From Bacteroidota bacterium (GTDB lineage: Bacteria; Bacteroidota; Bacteroidia; Flavobacteriales; Flavobacteriaceae): a stretch of 64,000 nucleotides of DNA. The stretch lies in contig CANFJB010000003.1 in the NCBI GenBank assembly GCA_947447375.1, positions 1-64,000 of the forward strand. The letters run 5' to 3'. Within the stretch, counting starts at the first letter, position 1, and each line of letters opens with the position of its first letter. This document shows positions 2,015-44,188 of the stretch, one piece after another. The translations under genes were made by a program, and so were the position numbers. The notes beneath the pieces were generated by a model. The model worked only from the letters and a program-made list of their open reading frames with translations. It was not told the DNA's origin and did no database searches.

Positions 2015-2935
2015 ATGAAAAAGATTAATTATATTATAACAGGAGCACTACTATTATTTAGTAGTGCCCTTTTCTCCCAACAAGAAAGTCTCTTTACGGA
2101 ATATAGGTATCATATGAATGTTTTTAACCCTGCTTATGCTGGAGTTGATAATGAAACAATTATTACAAGCTCTATTCGTAAACAATGGGTTGGGATAAAG
2201 GACGCCCCAGAAAGTCAAGCTTTTTCATTCGGGACAAATTGGAAAAAGAATGTTGGGATAGGAGCTACGTTAGTAAGTGATCGCACTTTCATTGAAAAAC
2301 AAGTGTCATATGGAATTGATTTTTCTTATAAAGTAAAACTAAGCGCTACAGTTGACATGTATTTAGGGTTAAAAGTAGGTGGAAATGTATACGATGTTAA
2401 CACTTCAGGTTTAGAAACGTATAATATTATTTCTGATCCAGCTTTGATCACGATTCATCATTTTGACCCAAACATGGGGGTAGGGATGTTACTTAAAAAA
2501 GGAAAATTCTTTTATTCTTTATCAGTTCCAAAAATACTAAATACAGATAGAGCTAAGTTAGAAAGAGGTTTTGCGACTGTTGCTTCTGACAGGCCACATC
2601 TATATATGAGTAGCGGTTATGATTTTGATTTAAATGACACCAAAACGTTTGTATTTAAACCATCATTTTTGATGCGTTATGTAACTGGCGCTCCAATGTC
2701 TCTAGATTTTAATGGAATGTTGATCATGCACAATTTTGTTGAATTAGGAGCTACCTATAGAACGGATAATGCTCAAACTAGAGATGAATTATTTCCGATG
2801 AATACGGTTGCAGGAATGATTAATTTATACATTAGTAAAAATATGTGCGTTGGATTTGTATATGAAACCAGTTCTAGAGAAGAGTTAGCTAGTGCTAAAA
2901 ACACGAATGAATTTTTCTTAAGATATAAGTTCTAA
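2015..2935 (+). CDS. PorP/SprF family type IX secretion membrane protein
   Basis: 306 residues with a signal peptide (MKKINYIITGALLLFSSALF, cleavage near SQ) and an N-terminal signature seen in PorP/SprF proteins (ESLFTEYRYHMNVFNPAYAG). The rest alternates as expected for an outer-membrane beta-barrel and ends in an aromatic-containing strand (FFLRYKF). SprF-like proteins are known to be needed for secretion or surface attachment of type B CTD proteins such as SprB. The gene follows the HYR protein by 19 bases and precedes a terminator, so the two likely form a dedicated client-partner operon. Confidence 0.9.
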   Translation: MKKINYIITGALLLFSSALFSQQESLFTEYRYHMNVFNPAYAGVDNETIITSSIRKQWVGIKDAPESQAFSFGTNWKKNVGIGATLVSDRTFIEKQVSYGIDFSYKVKLSATVDMYLGLKVGGNVYDVNTSGLETYNIISDPALITIHHFDPNMGVGMLLKKGKFFYSLSVPKILNTDRAKLERGFATVASDRPHLYMSSGYDFDLNDTKTFVFKPSFLMRYVTGAPMSLDFNGMLIMHNFVELGATYRTDNAQTRDELFPMNTVAGMINLYISKNMCVGFVYETSSREELASAKNTNEFFLRYKF

Positions 2936-2975
2936 AAACTATTTAAGCTTGTAAAAGCTTAATTATTTAAAATTT

Positions 2976-3005
2976 AAAAAGCAACCTCAACGGGTTGCTT
3001 TTTTG
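2976..3005 (+). terminator. Rho-independent terminator after the PorP/SprF gene
   Basis: Stem GCAACC / GGTTGC, extended by an A-run and T-run, followed by TTTTTTG. It closes the HYR-PorP operon. Confidence 0.8.
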
Positions 3006-3059
3006 TTTGATTTTTTTTAACAAGTCTCTTCATTGAATATTGCAACGTACTAGAATTAA

Positions 3060-3179
3060 AAGCAATTGAAATTATTAGAGTCTCCAAAAGGAATTCTGTA
3101 TAATTTTCACTCGGTTAACTTGTACAAAGACGGTCAAAAAACATTTGTAAACGAATATTTTAGATTTTTAGAAGATTAA
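3060..3179 (+). pseudogene. Possible gene-end relic
   Basis: About 39 codons are open here and read like a protein C-terminus (QLKLLESPKGILYNFHSVN, then FVNEYFRFLED and stop). The frame is closed by a TAA immediately upstream and there is no start codon. I do not recognise the parent family. It may be a decayed remnant of a lost gene or chance; confidence is low. Confidence 0.25.
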
Positions 3180-3223
3180 TTTGTGACTTTTGCCTTTTCT
3201 TTATTTCTTTTGTGGTGAAAAGT

Positions 3224-4006
3224 TTAAAGGCCTTTTAGAAAACCAATAATAACTTTTTCCAAATCTTCCTTATTTTCAATGTGGCTCATATGACCATCAG
3301 GGAAAGTAATTAATTCGGTATTGGTATTTTCAATTTGTGCTATATTGTCTTTGTATAATAATACGCCATCTTTTTCTCCAAGAATTAACATTTTAGGAAA
3401 ATCAGTTTCTTTAAGAATATATTGTCTGTCTTTTCTAATTTTCATTCCCTCCAACGAAGCAACTATTCCTTGCAAAGGGGTTTTTAAAGCCTCTAATTTT
3501 ACGTTTTCAATTTCATTTTCTAGTCGGTCACGGTTGTTTTCGCTAAATAAATTAGCAATCGACATTCTAACAAAATTGATATAATTCTGTTTTACAGCTT
3601 TAATCGCTCGATCCCGATTTATTTTTCTTTCTTCACTATCTTCCTTAGAAGTTGAATTCATTAACACCAATCCTTTTACAGCATTAGGAAATAATTCGGC
3701 AAACGCCAATGCAACATATCCTCCCATGGAATGCCCTATAATTATAGCTTTTCTAATTTTTAGATTGGATAAAATAGCTTTTACTATTTCAGCATTCTCT
3801 TCCATTGAATGAACATAACCAAGACAATCGGATTGCCCATGACCCAATAAATCAATTGAAATCACCCTATTTTTTTCAGCTAATTTAGGAGCCAAATCCT
3901 TCCACATGGTTTTGTTTTCCAAAAAACCGTGAAGTAAAACTACAGCAGTTCCTGTTCCAATATCGGAATAAGAAATGGCAGTGTTTTTATAGATAATTTG
4001 TTTCAT
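3224..4006 (-). CDS. Alpha/beta hydrolase
   Basis: 260 residues with an alpha/beta-hydrolase layout: oxyanion motif LLHGF (residues 24-28), LGHGQSD (54-60), nucleophile elbow GHSMGG with Ser93, an acid in the ILGEKDG region, and a C-terminal His in DGHMSH. It has no signal peptide, so it is probably cytosolic. The substrate cannot be read from sequence; carboxylesters or a small-molecule ester are typical of the family. The gene is monocistronic and separated from pepP by a terminator. Confidence 0.85.
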   Translation of the reverse strand: MKQIIYKNTAISYSDIGTGTAVVLLHGFLENKTMWKDLAPKLAEKNRVISIDLLGHGQSDCLGYVHSMEENAEIVKAILSNLKIRKAIIIGHSMGGYVALAFAELFPNAVKGLVLMNSTSKEDSEERKINRDRAIKAVKQNYINFVRMSIANLFSENNRDRLENEIENVKLEALKTPLQGIVASLEGMKIRKDRQYILKETDFPKMLILGEKDGVLLYKDNIAQIENTNTELITFPDGHMSHIENKEDLEKVIIGFLKGL

Positions 4007-4048
4007 TGATATATTTCGTGCAAAAATAAGGCTAAAATTTCTACAAAA

Positions 4049-4079
4049 TAAAAAACGGTTTACATTTCTGCAAACCGTC
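4049..4079 (-). terminator. Terminator after the aminopeptidase P gene
   Basis: Read on the minus strand, stem ACGGTTTGC / GTAAACCGT with loop AGAAAT is followed by TTTTTTA. It separates the aminopeptidase gene from the downstream hydrolase. Confidence 0.7.
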
Positions 4080-4113
4080 TATTATCTATTTGTCTAAATT
4101 CTTTTTATCTAAA

Positions 4114-5406
4114 TTATGCATTCATGATCGTTTCAATTTCTTCAATTTCAATTGGAATATTCTGCATCAAATTAAAAGGATTTCCTTTTTCTTGAATAAC
4201 TACATTATCTTCTAATCGAATTCCAAAACCTTCCTCTGGAATATAAATTCCTGGCTCAACTGTAAACACCATATTGGCTTGCATTGGCTCAGTCAAAATT
4301 CCATAATCGTGAGTGTCTAAGCCCAAATGGTGCGAAGTTCCATGCATGAAATATTTTTTATACGCAGGCCATTCAGGGTTTTCATTTTGAACATCGGCCT
4401 TGTCAATTAATCCTAAACCTAATAATTCTGAAGTCATTAATTTACCAACTTCAACATGATATTGTTTCCAATTTGTTCCAGGAGTTAGCATTTTTGTAGC
4501 TTCATTTTTCACATTCAAAACAGCATTATAAACTGCTTTTTGTCTTTCAGAAAAACGCCCAGATACAGGAATCATACGCGTCATATCACTAGAATAATTA
4601 GCATATTCAGCAGCAACATCCAATAATATCAAATCCCCAGCTTTACAAACTTGGTTATTCTCTATATAATGTAAAACATTGGCATTATTTCCTGAAGCAA
4701 TTATTGGCGTATAGGCAAAACCTTTTGATCTATTTCGAATAAATTCGTGAATAAATTCGGCCTCAATTTCATATTCAGTAACATTTGGTTTTACAAATGA
4801 CAATACTCTTCGAAATCCTTTTTCGGTAATATTACAAGCATTCTGAATTAATTCAATTTCCTCTTTTTCCTTTACTGATCGAATGCGTTGCAAAATCGGA
4901 TTACTTTTTGCAACTGCATGAGCAGGATATTTCTCTTTCCACCATTTTACAAAACGGGCCTCACGAGTTTCTGTTTCTACAGTCGCACGGTAATGCTCAT
5001 TAGTATTGATATAAATAGTTTCGGAATGGGTCATTAATTCGAATAAAATTTTCTCGAAATCTTGAAGCCAATAAACCGTTTTTATTCCTGAAACCTCAAA
5101 TGCACGATCTTTAGAAAGTTTTTCGCCTTCCCAAATCGCAATGTGATCGTTGGTTTCTTTTAAGAATAATATTTCTCTTTGGTGCTCGTATGGTGCATCT
5201 GGGAATAGTAACAAAATACTCTCTTCTTGATCTACTCCCGACAAATAAAAGATGTCGCGGTGTTGTGCAAATGGCAAAGTGCTATCGGCAGAAACCGGGT
5301 AGATATCATTAGAATTAAAAACCGCCACACTTTTAGGCTTCATCTGAGCCGTAAATTTCGAACGATTTTTTACAAATAAATTACGGTCAATTTGATGGTA
5401 TTTCAT
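4114..5406 (-). CDS. pepP: Aminopeptidase P family protein (M24B)
   Basis: 430 residues. An N-terminal AMP_N-type domain (about 1-130) precedes a pita-bread M24 domain. Metal ligands are visible: Asp in ILLDVAAE, Asp in SSDMTRM, His in MHGTSHHLG, Glu in TVEPGIY and Glu in IRLEDNV. The family removes the N-terminal residue from X-Pro peptides using two Mn2+ ions. Its length is normal for the family and there is no signal peptide. It starts 24 bases downstream of mvaS on the same strand, so the two are probably co-transcribed. Confidence 0.9.
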   Translation of the reverse strand: MKYHQIDRNLFVKNRSKFTAQMKPKSVAVFNSNDIYPVSADSTLPFAQHRDIFYLSGVDQEESILLLFPDAPYEHQREILFLKETNDHIAIWEGEKLSKDRAFEVSGIKTVYWLQDFEKILFELMTHSETIYINTNEHYRATVETETREARFVKWWKEKYPAHAVAKSNPILQRIRSVKEKEEIELIQNACNITEKGFRRVLSFVKPNVTEYEIEAEFIHEFIRNRSKGFAYTPIIASGNNANVLHYIENNQVCKAGDLILLDVAAEYANYSSDMTRMIPVSGRFSERQKAVYNAVLNVKNEATKMLTPGTNWKQYHVEVGKLMTSELLGLGLIDKADVQNENPEWPAYKKYFMHGTSHHLGLDTHDYGILTEPMQANMVFTVEPGIYIPEEGFGIRLEDNVVIQEKGNPFNLMQNIPIEIEEIETIMNA

Positions 5407-5430
5407 AATGCAATAAATTAGATTACAAAT

Positions 5431-6801
5431 CTAATCAATCCATTTGTAATATCTAGCACCTATTAGGTTAGGATTTTCATTTTCTATTTTATCCAATATC
5501 CACTCACTTTTTGGCGACTGAACACTCGATTTTTGCTCTTTTTTGTGCAATTTTTCATACGTTTCAAATCCAATTTCATGACTTTTTTCTAATGTTTGAA
5601 ACAAATTAACATTCGAAATTGCCGATGCCCAATTGGGTTGAATTGTTCCTTCAAACACTTTGGATTTTGAACCGCTTCCGTAGGCTAGGAAACCAAACTT
5701 TTGATTTGAAAGATCTGTTTTTGATTCATAAAAATGAGCTAAAGTCGATAGAAATCCCATAAAAATTGAACCTGTATATAAATTACCAATTAACGAAGAA
5801 GCAATTTCTGCAGGTTGCAATTTTTCGTTTACAAAGTTTCGGTATTCCTCTGATTTGCTGATTTCTTTCAGTTTATTTTGGTATTCTGAAGCGTCTTCAT
5901 TTCCATTAATAATTTTGTTTTCATGATCCAAACAATAGATTTCCGACAACATTCTTCTTCCTTGAAAAGAGTAAGGAAGGTGCATAATTATACTTTTCCA
6001 AGAATTATAAACTGAATCTTCGGAACCACTTTCTTTTTTAAACGAAAAGTAAGCATTTCTAGTTCTATCCATATAACATTGATTGGAATATTGCCCTTCA
6101 AAAACCGGTTGGTCTTTGTGAATTTCAATTTCAGCTTCTAAATTATCGAACCAATTTTCGTTATTAGAATTTCCGGTAATTGCTTCTTTAGAAATTGAGC
6201 GATAAGGTTTGAAAAAATCAAAAACTCCTTTTGTACTAGTTGCCCAATTATTTTCAAATGCTATGATTCTAGGATTTTGAGAAATTAATAAAGCTACTGC
6301 TCCTGCCCCTTGAGTGTACTCTCCAGTTGAATTTAAATCGTATTTAGCAATGTCAGATGTGACTACAATTGCTTTTTTATTTGGATTTAATTTTACAAAA
6401 TCAATACAATTTTGCATTGCATCAACACCGCCAATACATGCAAATGTAAAATCAACAACGTCGCATTCTGCCAATCGGTTTTCACCAAATTTTTGCTCCA
6501 TTAGTGTAACTAAAAAGGAAGCAATAGGTTTTGAACTGTCGATTGCGCTTTCGGTTCCAACATAAATTCGAGAAATATCCTCTAAGTTAATTGCATTATC
6601 TACAATCAATTTAGTCAATGCGTTAGCACCAAAAACCACCGTATCTTGATGGGTATCAGGCAATGTCATTTTCAGTAATCCCAATCCTTTTTCCAATTTT
6701 TCAGGATCGATATTTCTATTATTTGCCAATGTATTTATTGGTAAATGTATTTTTGCAACATCAAATGCGATAGCGTCTATTCCGAAATTCATTGTAGTCA
6801 A
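5431..6801 (-). CDS. mvaS: Hydroxymethylglutaryl-CoA synthase
   Basis: 456 residues. The N-terminal thiolase-fold half carries the active-site Cys122 in FACIGGVDAM, corresponding to NACYGG in the family. The acid-containing segment YVGTESAIDSSKP and the GEYTQGAGAVALLI segment are also present. The enzyme condenses acetoacetyl-CoA with acetyl-CoA to give HMG-CoA, the entry to the mevalonate route to isoprenoids, which many Flavobacteria use. The sequence around the Cys differs from classical enzymes (Ile for Tyr), so the assignment rests on overall pattern. It is upstream of pepP in the same direction. Confidence 0.85.
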   Translation of the reverse strand: MTTMNFGIDAIAFDVAKIHLPINTLANNRNIDPEKLEKGLGLLKMTLPDTHQDTVVFGANALTKLIVDNAINLEDISRIYVGTESAIDSSKPIASFLVTLMEQKFGENRLAECDVVDFTFACIGGVDAMQNCIDFVKLNPNKKAIVVTSDIAKYDLNSTGEYTQGAGAVALLISQNPRIIAFENNWATSTKGVFDFFKPYRSISKEAITGNSNNENWFDNLEAEIEIHKDQPVFEGQYSNQCYMDRTRNAYFSFKKESGSEDSVYNSWKSIIMHLPYSFQGRRMLSEIYCLDHENKIINGNEDASEYQNKLKEISKSEEYRNFVNEKLQPAEIASSLIGNLYTGSIFMGFLSTLAHFYESKTDLSNQKFGFLAYGSGSKSKVFEGTIQPNWASAISNVNLFQTLEKSHEIGFETYEKLHKKEQKSSVQSPKSEWILDKIENENPNLIGARYYKWID

Positions 6802-15078: not shown

Positions 15079-15182
15079 CCCCCAAAAGGGGAACAAAAGA
15101 AACGATATTAGATTTTAATAAAATAAATTAATGATATTCACTTTCGGCTCCCTTTCCTTTGGAGAGGGTTGGGGAGAGGATT
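15069..15182. repeat. Inverted pair of GC-rich repeats (MITE-like)
   Basis: The left unit at 15069-15092 contains CCCCCTAACCCCCAAAAGGGG-type sequence, itself a hairpin. The right unit at 15146-15182 is 37 bases and matches the repeat at 42092-42128 at about 33 of 37 positions by eye. The two units face each other with about 55 bases of AT-rich noncoding DNA between them. This resembles an internally deleted form of the element inside the addA-like gene. The left unit includes the stop codon of the TPR gene. Confidence 0.7.
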
Positions 15183-40513: not shown

Positions 40514-43500
40514 TTACAAATTTACAACGTTAATTTCTTCTCCAATATAAACTAACGCTTTTTTAGTGACTATTAATCCCATTTTTTCAATAGCATTTTG
40601 GTAATTTTCCAATTGGAGTTGGTACTTTTGATTGTGAGTTCCTGTTTTATAATCTAATAAATATACTTCCTTATTTTTGGTCAAAACCATTCGGTCTGGC
40701 TTTATCGTTTTTCCTTCTTTTTGAATTATTGCTTGCTCATTTAAGATTTCATTTCCATGTGAAAAATAACTTTCAAGTTCTTTATTATTTACAATTTCTT
40801 GAATACTTTTCAGAACAACTTCCTTTTGATTTAAGGTAATTAACCCATTTTCAATTGCATTTTGTATTGCTAAATCTATATCGGATGCCGTTTTTACAAA
40901 TGATAAAATTTCATGAATTATGTTTCCATATTCAATTGCTTTTTGCTGATTTGTTCCCCACATTAATGCTTCGCGTCGGGCAATTTTAATGTCTTTAGGG
41001 TCCAATACACTACTAATTGTTGGGATAGTATTGGTTTCATCATTGAATGAAATTGCTTTCGATAACTTTACTTTGTTTCCAAATTCGTATTCTAAAATAC
41101 TTGGATTATAAACTTCAATCGCAATTAAATATTCAATAAAAAACGACGCCGTATTATAAGGATATTGCCCTTCTTTATTTGGTTCTAAATATTGCGAAAT
41201 TACATACAATTGTTCCTCGGCACGAGTTAATGCAACATATAAAACATTGATATTATCAAGCAACTCCTCTTGTTTTTTTTCATGAAATACCGCTGCAGCT
41301 TCCTCTCCAAAATTTTCTACAGAGCTACTATTGTCTATTAATACTTTTGGTAAACCAAAGGTTTCTTCTTCGGCATCAAGCCACAATTTATCTTTTGGTT
41401 TTCGAACATAATCTTCATCAGCAAAAGGCATAATTACCACCGGAAATTCTAATCCTTTTGATTTGTGAATGGTCATAATCCGAATTGCATTTTTCCCTTC
41501 CGGAGATGGAATGCTGAATTTATCGTTATTTTTATCCCAATAGCTTAAAAAATCTGCAATTCCAGCTTGATTTCTTATATCACGTTCTAAAACTATATCG
41601 ATGAAATATTGAACGTAGGCATTCCCCGCCCCAACCCTCCCCGAAGGGGAGGGAGACGAAACCGATAAATCGAATTGTTGCTCTTTCTCTTGATTTTTTA
41701 ATTCTGATTTAATTTTATCTAAAACTGTTGAGATAGTTCCAGTAACTTCTTCATTTTTAAAGCGAATTACTTTATATCCTAATTCATTAAGAATACGAGT
41801 TCGATCTGCATCTAATTGAATTTGTTCCTCAGTAAAATGATATTCGCCATCAACTTCGATTATTTTTTTTTTTGATAAACAGACAAAATCAACTATGAAA
41901 TCATTTATTAAATGCTGTTGTCTGAATTTATATTCTAAAGATTTCGATTTTAACTCCGACCATAATATCTTTTCAGCATCAGTTGGTGTTTTTCGCATTT
42001 CTTGCGCTTTTTCTATAGACAAATGAGAATATTTTCCTCCGGTTAAATATCCTAATTTCTGTCCTTTTTCACCTGCATGATTTTCCGTAATGTCTCCCTT
42101 TCCTTTGGAAAGGGTTGGGGATAGGAATTTACTCACAATTATTTCTACCGCCTCATACAAAGATTTTTTCCTAATGTCTTGAAATGAAAGTGAAATATCA
42201 AACTCCGATAACCACAATTCAAACTCATTTTCTTTTACTTTTTCTTTCCCTTTGGCGATGAAATCATGAACAGCCATATTGGTTTGAAACTGATTTGCAA
42301 TATAAAGTAAGAATCCTGCTTTGGCTTTAATGTCAGAGTTATTGTGTAAATATCTTAAAACATTGATTATCATTTGAACGTCGGTTGAATTCTTAATCAT
42401 CAACGTTTCAGAAGAAATAATTGGAATGTTATTCTCAATTAGATAATTGGCTAAAGCAATTCCCTGCGCCCTTTTTCGGGTTAGAATTACAATTTCTTGG
42501 TAGTCAAATCCTTCGTTTTTTACTTTTTCAATTGTCTTTAAAGTTGCCTTTAAGTACATTTCTATTTTATCCAATGACTCTTCTTCCTCTGAAGTGTTTT
42601 CCATTTTTGGAAGGAATGAAATGTTCACATACCCTCCTTTTTTACTATTTTCTTCTTGGCGACTGTGATTTTCGTATAAATCTTTGTAATCTGCATTGTT
42701 AAATTCAGTTGATAAATAGTAAAAAAACTTATTATTAAAATCGATTACTTGAGAATAACTTCTGTAATTGGTATCTAATGTAAATAATTGTTTGTCAGGA
42801 TTATTGAACGGATTTTTATCTTTACTCAATTCGATAAATTGCTCCGCTTTTCCGCCACGCCATCTGTAAATAGATTGTTTAGGATCGCCCACAATCATCA
42901 AAGTTCCTTTTTCACCTTCTATTTCGCTTGAAGTGGCATTGTCAATTAGAGGAATTAAATTCTGCCATTGCATTTCGGAGGTGTCTTGAAATTCATCTAT
43001 AAAAAAATGGCGGTAACGTTCCCCTAATCTTTCATAAATAAACGGCGCCGGTTGGTATTGAATTTCATTATAAATAATCGCATTGAACTCGGCTATAGAA
43101 AGTACATTTTGCTCTTTCTGGATTTTTGCCAATTCGTTACTAACGGTATTTAACAAAGAAAGTGGCGTAATGTTTTTTAGGAAAGCATTATAAAATTCTC
43201 TTTTTTCAAATTTGGTATAAATCGTTTCTAAAACACTTAAAAGTTCCGGAATTATAGCTTCTATTTCTAATTTGTCTTTCGCAGTTTTATTGATTTTAAT
43301 ATCATCAAATTCATGGTAAGTTTTATTGTTTGGATTGAATTTTTCGACAGCTATATTGTTCAAATGATTGGGAAAGTGTCCTGCAGAAAACGATTTTATA
43401 TCGATTCCATTTTTTTCAATTAAAGCCAACAAGCTTTTTGCTAATTCTGAATTTTCTTTATTGATAACCTGACAAGCTTCGGCAACTTTATTTTTTATTT

Positions 43501-44188
43501 CGATGAATTCTGAAATGGATTTATCTTGAAAATGAGTTATTTCTTCCCGATTATTCTCATTTAAAAGCAAGCGCCCCGTATCTAAAATTTCACGTGAAAT
43601 ATCCCAACTTTTATCTTCGTCGGTTTTTTGCATGGTGAAATCGATGAGTAGTTTGGTTAATACATCGTCTTCGCCGGCTTGAGCGATTATGGCATCAACG
43701 GCTTCTGTTAAAAGATTTTCAGTGTCCAAAGTCACTTCAAATGTCATCGGCAAATTTAAATCGTGGGCAAAAGCACGGATTACTTTGTGCGTGAATTTAT
43801 CGATGGTTGAAATATCAAAAGCGGCATAATTATGAATAATATGCTTTATGATTTGTTGCGCTTTGGTTTGTATTTGAATAATCGAAAGCCCAATTGGTTC
43901 GTCTTGCCATTCTTGAGGATTGTCTTTTTTTCGCCTTCCATTTGACAGAATATCCATTAATTCTGCTGCTTTTGGATCGGGAATTTTCTCTGCAAACTCT
44001 GATAAATTCCACACAATTCGGCTTTTCATTTCGTGAACCGCTTTGTTGGTAAACGTTATGGCGAGGATGTTTCTATAGGCGTCGTTTTTCTTGGAGACCA
44101 AAATAATTTTCAGGTATTCTTTAACCAGCGCATAAGTTTTTCCTGAGCCTGCCGATGCGTCGTATATGGAGAATGATGGTCTTTGCAT
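40514..44188 (-). CDS. addA: AddA-like UvrD helicase-nuclease interrupted in frame by a DUF559 domain
   Basis: 1224 residues. Walker A is DASAGSGKTYALVKEY near the N-terminus; helicase motifs include FIDEFQDTSEMQW, IVGDPKQSIYRWRGG and MTIHKSKGLEFPVV. The C-terminal PD-(D/E)XK nuclease has DRMVL and LLDYKTG. Residues about 688-856 are foreign to the family: a complete DUF559 (Vsr-like) domain with FIVDFVCL and IIEVDGEYH, bordered by SPTLSKGKGD and SSPSPSGRVGAGN, which are translations of GC-rich inverted repeats. Without this segment the protein would be about 1055 residues, the usual size for the family. The reading frame is intact, so the fusion may be functional. Probable partner of the AddB-like protein. 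Confidence 0.85.
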   Translation of the reverse strand: MQRPSFSIYDASAGSGKTYALVKEYLKIILVSKKNDAYRNILAITFTNKAVHEMKSRIVWNLSEFAEKIPDPKAAELMDILSNGRRKKDNPQEWQDEPIGLSIIQIQTKAQQIIKHIIHNYAAFDISTIDKFTHKVIRAFAHDLNLPMTFEVTLDTENLLTEAVDAIIAQAGEDDVLTKLLIDFTMQKTDEDKSWDISREILDTGRLLLNENNREEITHFQDKSISEFIEIKNKVAEACQVINKENSELAKSLLALIEKNGIDIKSFSAGHFPNHLNNIAVEKFNPNNKTYHEFDDIKINKTAKDKLEIEAIIPELLSVLETIYTKFEKREFYNAFLKNITPLSLLNTVSNELAKIQKEQNVLSIAEFNAIIYNEIQYQPAPFIYERLGERYRHFFIDEFQDTSEMQWQNLIPLIDNATSSEIEGEKGTLMIVGDPKQSIYRWRGGKAEQFIELSKDKNPFNNPDKQLFTLDTNYRSYSQVIDFNNKFFYYLSTEFNNADYKDLYENHSRQEENSKKGGYVNISFLPKMENTSEEEESLDKIEMYLKATLKTIEKVKNEGFDYQEIVILTRKRAQGIALANYLIENNIPIISSETLMIKNSTDVQMIINVLRYLHNNSDIKAKAGFLLYIANQFQTNMAVHDFIAKGKEKVKENEFELWLSEFDISLSFQDIRKKSLYEAVEIIVSKFLSPTLSKGKGDITENHAGEKGQKLGYLTGGKYSHLSIEKAQEMRKTPTDAEKILWSELKSKSLEYKFRQQHLINDFIVDFVCLSKKKIIEVDGEYHFTEEQIQLDADRTRILNELGYKVIRFKNEEVTGTISTVLDKIKSELKNQEKEQQFDLSVSSPSPSGRVGAGNAYVQYFIDIVLERDIRNQAGIADFLSYWDKNNDKFSIPSPEGKNAIRIMTIHKSKGLEFPVVIMPFADEDYVRKPKDKLWLDAEEETFGLPKVLIDNSSSVENFGEEAAAVFHEKKQEELLDNINVLYVALTRAEEQLYVISQYLEPNKEGQYPYNTASFFIEYLIAIEVYNPSILEYEFGNKVKLSKAISFNDETNTIPTISSVLDPKDIKIARREALMWGTNQQKAIEYGNIIHEILSFVKTASDIDLAIQNAIENGLITLNQKEVVLKSIQEIVNNKELESYFSHGNEILNEQAIIQKEGKTIKPDRMVLTKNKEVYLLDYKTGTHNQKYQLQLENYQNAIEKMGLIVTKKALVYIGEEINVVNL
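41621..42128 (-). mobile_element. DUF559 element with terminal inverted repeats, inserted in addA
   Basis: Bounded by 37-base inverted repeats at 41621-41657 and 42092-42128, identical at 29 of 37 positions by direct alignment. Each repeat can itself fold into a hairpin. The interior codes in frame, in the same direction as addA, for a DUF559 endonuclease-like domain (about 120 residues). No transposase and no clear target-site duplication are visible, although TAGGCATT and TAGGAATT sit at the two edges. Mobility is inferred from the structure and from related repeats elsewhere in the window. Confidence 0.75.

Follow-up and report, generated by a model that had tools for sequence, protein, structure and literature searches.

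How does a complete DUF559 nuclease domain come to lie, in frame and between two inverted repeats, in the middle of a DNA-repair gene? The question was raised by a 64,000-nt stretch of DNA from a member of the Flavobacteriaceae (assembly GCA_947447375.1, contig CANFJB010000003.1, positions 1 to 64,000), referred to here as the window. An earlier note, made from the sequence alone, had proposed that the insert in an AddA-like helicase was a mobile element without a transposase of its own, comparable in outcome to Rickettsia palindromic elements (RPEs) or inteins, and that it might use its nuclease to create the break it inserts into or be moved by the recombination of the host. We first re-examined the locus and then asked whether the insert is present in related genomes and in other genes.

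An in-frame insert in a RecB/AddA-like helicase

The locus was found to contain the following features:

40514..44188 (-), host ORF of 1224 aa, a RecB/AddA-like helicase-nuclease that carries the insert in frame
42092..42128 (-), left end of the cassette (5' in the coding sense), an outer C-rich arm plus a hairpin at 42096-42114, translated FLSPTLSKGKGD
42014..42052 (-), cassette-specific N-terminal stretch GYLTGGKYSHLSI, shared with LeuRS inserts (GYMTGGNNSHLLL) and weakly with MetH and RecG inserts
41699..42013 (-), DUF559 (PF04480) PD-(D/E)XK nuclease domain, aa 726-830, complete, with the probable catalytic residues present
41621..41657 (-), right end of the cassette, a hairpin at 41635-41653 plus an outer arm, translated SPSPSGRVGAGN

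The two 37-nt inverted repeats match at 29 of 37 positions, and a repeat search extended them to 48 nt at 73% identity. In the surrounding 1 kb the best 37-nt inverted pair scored 29, whereas 150 mononucleotide shuffles reached at most 26 and 82 other real 1-kb windows at most 28. Each arm contains its own C-rich hairpin (CCCTCCCC-GAA-GGGGAGGG at 41635-41653 and CCCTTTCC-TTT-GGAAAGGG at 42096-42114). The first of these, with up to 3 mismatches, occurs at that one place in the window and in 0 of 100 shuffles. The Pfam DUF559 match (positions 5-108 of 109, E 2e-31) lies between helicase parts, and without it the protein would be about the size of the closest empty orthologue, 1058 aa. The helicase is closest to NCBIfam "RecB-like helicase" models, with AddA models scoring lower and all of them below cut-off.

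Filled and empty alleles

To test whether the domain had been inserted, we compared the helicase in 61 genomes of the genus (Flavobacterium, judged from named relatives). All 61 had a helicase match. In 5 the match ran through the insert or a version of it, in open frames of 1224-1286 aa, while the others were mostly 1045-1104 aa. In one genome (G226) the helicase is split between two contigs (C83 and C50) at the insertion site and was left undecided; an insert there may have broken the assembly. The site was read in 30 loci, of which 5 were filled and 25 were not; 18 of the latter had a linker segment of at most 162 nt and 7 a longer one. The closest relative of the window gene (genome G233, 86% and 89% identical in the two halves) is empty, with the linker KFL-SKVNSS-NAYVQ. 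One site (locus L066) holds a solo palindrome translated SPTLSKGEG, and two (L059, L067) hold palindromic ends without the nuclease. The insert replaces a short variable linker. No target-site duplication was visible and the linker residues differ, so the exact ends are uncertain by a few bases.

Presence of the insert is scattered on the host tree. On a quick tree of the helicase (39 rows, including 9 of 15 named helicase loci), presence requires 8 changes, 7 of them forced by starred branches, and a single clade of filled genes is rejected (AU p 1.5e-5). Eight rows of this tree had non-filled linkers over 160 nt; a palindrome is visible in L066, L059 and L067, but not clearly in L068 or L080.

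Related cassettes in other genes

A PF04480 search of 199 genomes of the family found matches in 89. Of 51 loci examined, 35 lie in open frames of 300 aa or more, although about half of the last 20 had been picked for long frames. In an unpicked sample, the 61 genus genomes, 22 of 36 matches with E below 1e-20 lie in frames of 700 aa or more. A profile of in-gene inserts was then used to collect 80 named Bacteroidota loci (the best 80 of 571), all 80 in frames of 300 aa or more: 45 leucyl-tRNA synthetase (LeuRS), 1 valyl-tRNA synthetase (ValRS), 15 of the window's helicase, 14 RecG and 5 others. By Pfam and NCBIfam matches, the hosts of related cassettes with palindromic ends are this helicase, LeuRS, ValRS, RecG, MetH, PurL and an NAD-dependent epimerase, in which the cassette is internal, and HemD, guanylate kinase (Gmk), a threonine-dehydratase-like enzyme and histidinol dehydrogenase (HisD), in which it is terminal. 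One MetH locus is a shortened frame, and the host of one long in-frame hit was not identified. A model of the helicase with the insert was of too low confidence to be used (845 aa, mean pLDDT 43.6), and the placement of the inserts in loops therefore rests on sequence alignment and on the presumed domain organization of LeuRS, RecG and MetH.

In the LeuRS loci that were read, the site lies between NWIGRSxGAxVxF and IxVFTTRPDT, at the editing domain. The cassette is present at this one site in 16 of 196 genomes with a match, of which one draft has a broken frame and two have a decayed nuclease. Two LeuRS inserts (L092, L093) have no visible palindromic ends and have lost the ExDG motif, yet persist, and are possibly domesticated remnants. 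In another LeuRS locus (L095), a second stretch with palindromic ends but no nuclease lies directly behind the cassette. One LeuRS ORF of 1386 aa from the Flavobacterium group (genome G214, contig C58) carries two DUF559 cassettes at two different sites.

Transfer of the cassette between homologous sites

A tree was calculated from 95 DUF559 domains (44 of the 80 named loci, 37 of the 51 loci above and 14 of 27 others). The labels fall into one lineage per host as far as possible (14 labels, 13 changes, the minimum, compared to a shuffled mean of 60). The helicase lineage lies within LeuRS-type cassettes, and HemD cassettes lie within solitary ones, but with supports of only 82-93, not starred; the alignment has few columns, and 45 of 92 forks are open.

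We next compared synonymous divergence (dS) between cassette and host gene. Of 1128 same-site pairs, 65 had host dS between 0.1 and 1.1. Four of these had cassettes significantly younger and seven significantly older than the host gene (p below 0.01; less than one expected), although pairs share rows and several of the older cases are saturated. The remaining 54 did not differ by the thresholds used, so much of the inheritance may be vertical with loss. The clearest case is a pair of Dokdonia LeuRS loci (L135/L139), with a cassette dS of 0.047 and a host dS of 0.76 (p 2e-11), and near-identity from the left palindrome to the right palindrome with divergence on both sides. A pair of Tenacibaculum RecG loci (L172/L176) is similar but less sharp. 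So in these cases the cassette moved between homologous sites almost alone. A search for phages as carriers found weak relatives at E 1e-5 in only 3 of 50,697 records.

The DUF559 domain

Twenty columns are invariant in the 62 cassette rows aligned (of 81 at hand), including D63, E74, D76 and H80, which are the probable catalytic residues of a PD-(D/E)XK enzyme. The cassette dN/dS is mostly near 0.1, and below 0.3 in 18 of 19 pairs chosen by kinship, indicating purifying selection. The predicted model of the domain (mean pLDDT 84) is closest to 3HRL, a Neisseria DUF559 protein (E 1e-6), and to the catalytic domain of the homing endonuclease I-Bth0305I (PDB 3R3P, E 5e-5). Weaker matches are Toxoplasma mitoribosomal proteins and Vsr (E 0.013), and the modification-dependent nucleases PvuRts1I and AbaSI were listed at weak E-values. 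A profile search gave the same first two.

The palindromic ends belong to a dispersed repeat family

The palindrome CCCTYYCCNNNGGRRAGGG occurs 17 times exactly in the window's genome, two of them the cassette's own ends, against 0 for the reversed pattern. Copies lie between genes, as inverted pairs 74-212 bp apart without DUF559 (three loci), and inside ORFs in frame. A solo copy (CCCTTTCCTTTGGAGAGGGTTGGGGAGAGG) lies at window positions 15150-15168, outside any ORF of 100 aa or more. Six near-identical palindromes with the same orientation lie within 3 kb of contig C10 (positions 2760-5700 of locus L214), and the same palindrome is found at about 100-140 bp (about position 103-141) from three contig ends, where it may lie at a repeat that breaks the assembly. 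One copy entered hemC alone (about 3019-3054 of locus L208, contig C2). This is an in-frame insertion absent from G233 (95% identical); of 30 loci read, the window's genome and two relatives have it and 27 lack it. Further in-frame palindromes occur near position 3000-3060 of three loci, in a 3-hydroxyacyl-CoA dehydrogenase-like ORF, a MurG-like N-terminus and a dihydrolipoamide acyltransferase-like ORF (named by eye). The right end of the window's cassette is open in all six frames and the left end in five, while only 0.7% of random 37-mers of the window lack any stop triplet.

Among 199 family genomes, the palindrome goes with a strong DUF559 match (E below 1e-9) in 23 of 29 genomes against 45 of 170 (p 9e-8), and with Y1_Tnp in 19 of 29 against 54 of 170 (p 6e-4). 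(Two genomes whose only listed palindromes lie at DUF559 were dropped.) The Y1_Tnp effect was not significant within DUF559-positive and DUF559-negative genomes (p 0.19 and 0.63). In the genus, 11 of 12 genomes with five or more copies have DUF559, compared to 13 of 49 others (p 5e-5), without subtraction of the copies within cassettes. Because the genomes are related, these p values are too small.

DUF559 and C-rich palindromes outside Bacteroidota

To determine whether the association is wider, we started from 39 plasmid-collection records with a DUF559 relative and 44 found with a second query, and retrieved 27 loci in Pseudomonadota, Deinococcota and Cyanobacteriota, one or a few per genus. 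Some of these, such as the two Azospirillum and two of the Sinorhizobium loci, are not independent. An inverted-repeat score between the flanks of 24 loci was mostly near the null and proved a poor measure, and hairpins were counted instead. A C-rich hairpin lies within about 300 bp upstream in 19 of 27 and downstream in 19 of 27, against 11 of 270 control windows; pooled, this corresponds to 38 of 54 flanks against 5 of 99 flanks of other ORFs in the same loci. For 26 solitary Flavobacteriaceae loci the figures were 31 of 52 against 6 of 224. Two of the 27 and 8 of the 26 loci have no hairpin on either side. By comparison, nine Y1_Tnp loci (of 10 retrieved) had such a hairpin in 1 of 18 flanks. 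The ends point tail-outward in genes (64 out, 5 in, 71 unclear) and weakly so outside Bacteroidota (19 against 7), but not in solitary Flavobacteriaceae loci (10 out, 9 in, 23 unclear).

Several of these DUF559 genes sit inside operons. One lies between sufB and sufC, one inside a transhydrogenase operon and one between paaD and paaZ, each with C-rich hairpins on both sides. In three Deinococcus species, a DUF559 gene sits at different junctions of the hpa (4-hydroxyphenylacetate) gene cluster.

Comparison with known elements

The nearest element in behaviour is the ShiLan domain of a phage DNA methylase (PMC11855218), which has an intein-like distribution, no stop when read in the host frame and no splicing domain, encodes a nuclease and is described as homing. 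There, however, the HNH nuclease is out of frame with the host, while here a PD-(D/E)XK nuclease is in frame, bounded by REP-like palindromes, in many bacterial hosts. REPtrons (PMC3733652, PMC6006769) likewise consist of a gene flanked by palindromes whose solo copies are dispersed in the genome, some of them in frame inside genes, but their enzyme is the HUH transposase RAYT (TnpA_REP), whereas the only domain found between the ends here is DUF559. The palindromes could not be filed as CGTC-tagged REPs. The window's right end has CGTC, but the CGTC/TGTC tag is not general: it was found in 11 of 54 hairpins versus 18 of 216 shifted controls outside Bacteroidota, where it is above control, and in 2 of 48 versus 6 of 192 in Flavobacteriaceae. 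Read by eye, the stems are C-rich and the tails TTGGGG-like, which does not fit the AT at the first stem positions and the CCA tail described for that group (PMC3733652).

RPEs are also palindromic DNA inserted in frame in unrelated proteins, and PMC3733652 places RPE-4 and RPE-6 among CGTC repeats, but they appear to carry no nuclease. I-Bth0305I matches in fold and profile, but 3R3P is named a "mobile intron protein", and no intron or intein was detected here. Free-standing DUF559 genes such as NGO0050 (3HRL) belong to the same domain family, and PMC4027163 compares PvuRts1I with NGO0050, but no function, palindrome flanks or in-frame insertion is described for them in the material consulted. 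The insert also does not resemble an insertion sequence, as it has no transposase domain and no visible target-site duplication. No named family for the cassette, and no description of the association of DUF559 with such palindromes, was found in the papers searched, which were screened mostly by title and the start of the abstract.

A homing-like cassette

Taken together, the observations support the core proposal of the earlier note, that this is a mobile element without a transposase that spreads inside genes while keeping the frame open. Two points go differently. The note had remarked that the element sits in a recombination gene, but this is incidental (hosts include LeuRS, MetH, PurL and HemD), and the finding is wider than Flavobacteria. 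That the nuclease makes the break into which the cassette inserts, as the note suggested it may, is still inference.

We consider it most likely, with moderate confidence, that the insert is one copy of a class of cassettes in which two REP-like C-rich palindromes in inverted orientation enclose a Vsr-fold DUF559 nuclease, homing into fixed sites and sometimes new ones, without splicing. Inside a gene the cassette lies in frame in a variable loop or linker, and the simplest reading is that it is translated as part of the host protein and not removed. In the proposed cycle, the nuclease, made as part of the fusion or from a solitary cassette, would nick or cut the empty allele at a fixed site, and repair on the filled copy would install the cassette with very little co-conversion. 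Transfer of the cassette alone is shown by sequence in a few pairs, but cleavage and homing are inferred. Rarely, the cassette would enter a new site and found a new site-specific lineage, consistent with the tree showing one lineage per host site. Probably only insertions that keep the frame and fall in tolerant loops survive, which the nearly stop-free palindromic ends would favour. Finally, cassettes decay or are lost, some sites then holding short palindromic remnants; these alleles are observed, but the direction of change is inferred.

A more far-reaching possibility, which we put forward only tentatively, is that DUF559 is the dedicated mobilising enzyme of a cross-phylum superfamily of C-rich REP-like palindromes, the counterpart of RAYT for palindromes that have no known transposase. 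It would then recognise or cut the palindromes, move solo repeats as well as whole palindrome-DUF559-palindrome cassettes, and in Bacteroidota have turned housekeeping genes into fixed in-frame homing sites. The homing-like reading would give a function to a family called "unknown function", add an unspliced class of homing-type element that lives as extra domains of essential enzymes, and offer a testable answer to a related open question: one REP superfamily (CGTC) seems to lack a dedicated transposase (PMC3733652). It also warns that extra domains in LeuRS, RecG, MetH and others can be parasites and not functional fusions.

Alternative explanations

We considered the possibility that the palindromes are ordinary REPs moved in trans by a RAYT/TnpA_REP (Y1, HUH) transposase, with DUF559 only a passenger trapped between two REPs. 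RAYTs of Bacteroidetes and Cyanobacteria are known, and REPs in frame inside tnpAREP genes have been described (PMC6006769), which keeps this explanation alive. The solo insertion in hemC, the inverted pairs without DUF559 and the co-occurrence of the palindrome with Y1_Tnp are also in its favour. However, the palindrome associates more strongly with DUF559 than with Y1_Tnp, C-rich hairpins are rare beside the nine Y1_Tnp loci read, and the window's genome has one weak Y1_Tnp hit, without such hairpins within 3 kb. Furthermore, the probable catalytic residues of DUF559 are kept under purifying selection. We regard this explanation as unlikely, with the reservation that the genomes are not independent of each other.

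Less likely still, the nuclease could serve another purpose, such as phage defence or repair, with the cassette spreading only passively by homologous or palindrome-mediated recombination and natural transformation. The transferred tracts could be ordinary recombination, and the fold search also lists the modification-dependent nucleases PvuRts1I and AbaSI at weak E-values. However, the Dokdonia tract begins and ends at the cassette ends instead of running into the flanks, and the closest functionally named structure besides 3HRL is a homing endonuclease.

It is very unlikely that DUF559 is a native accessory domain, inherited vertically and lost many times. Cassettes do cluster by host gene, two LeuRS copies look domesticated and most pairs show no decoupling from the host, but related cassettes with palindromic ends are found in 11 different host proteins (LeuRS and ValRS being related to each other), at the window's site in only 5 of 61 genomes and twice in one LeuRS, and some are younger than their hosts.

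Although in-frame inserts in essential genes with hairpins at both ends invite the idea of an atypical intein, intron or translational bypass element removed before the mature protein forms, this can be all but dismissed, as the helicase has no intein domain at E 0.001, there is no Rfam match at E 0.1 over 40514-44188, and no conserved splice residues were seen by eye at the ends. An intein-splicing match together with such a nuclease is recognizable elsewhere: an ORF at 4566-6716 (-) of locus L043 has an intein-splicing match below cut-off (PF14890, E 2e-6) and a DUF559-like domain (PF04480, E 5e-13), suggesting that the same nuclease family is probably used inside an intein.
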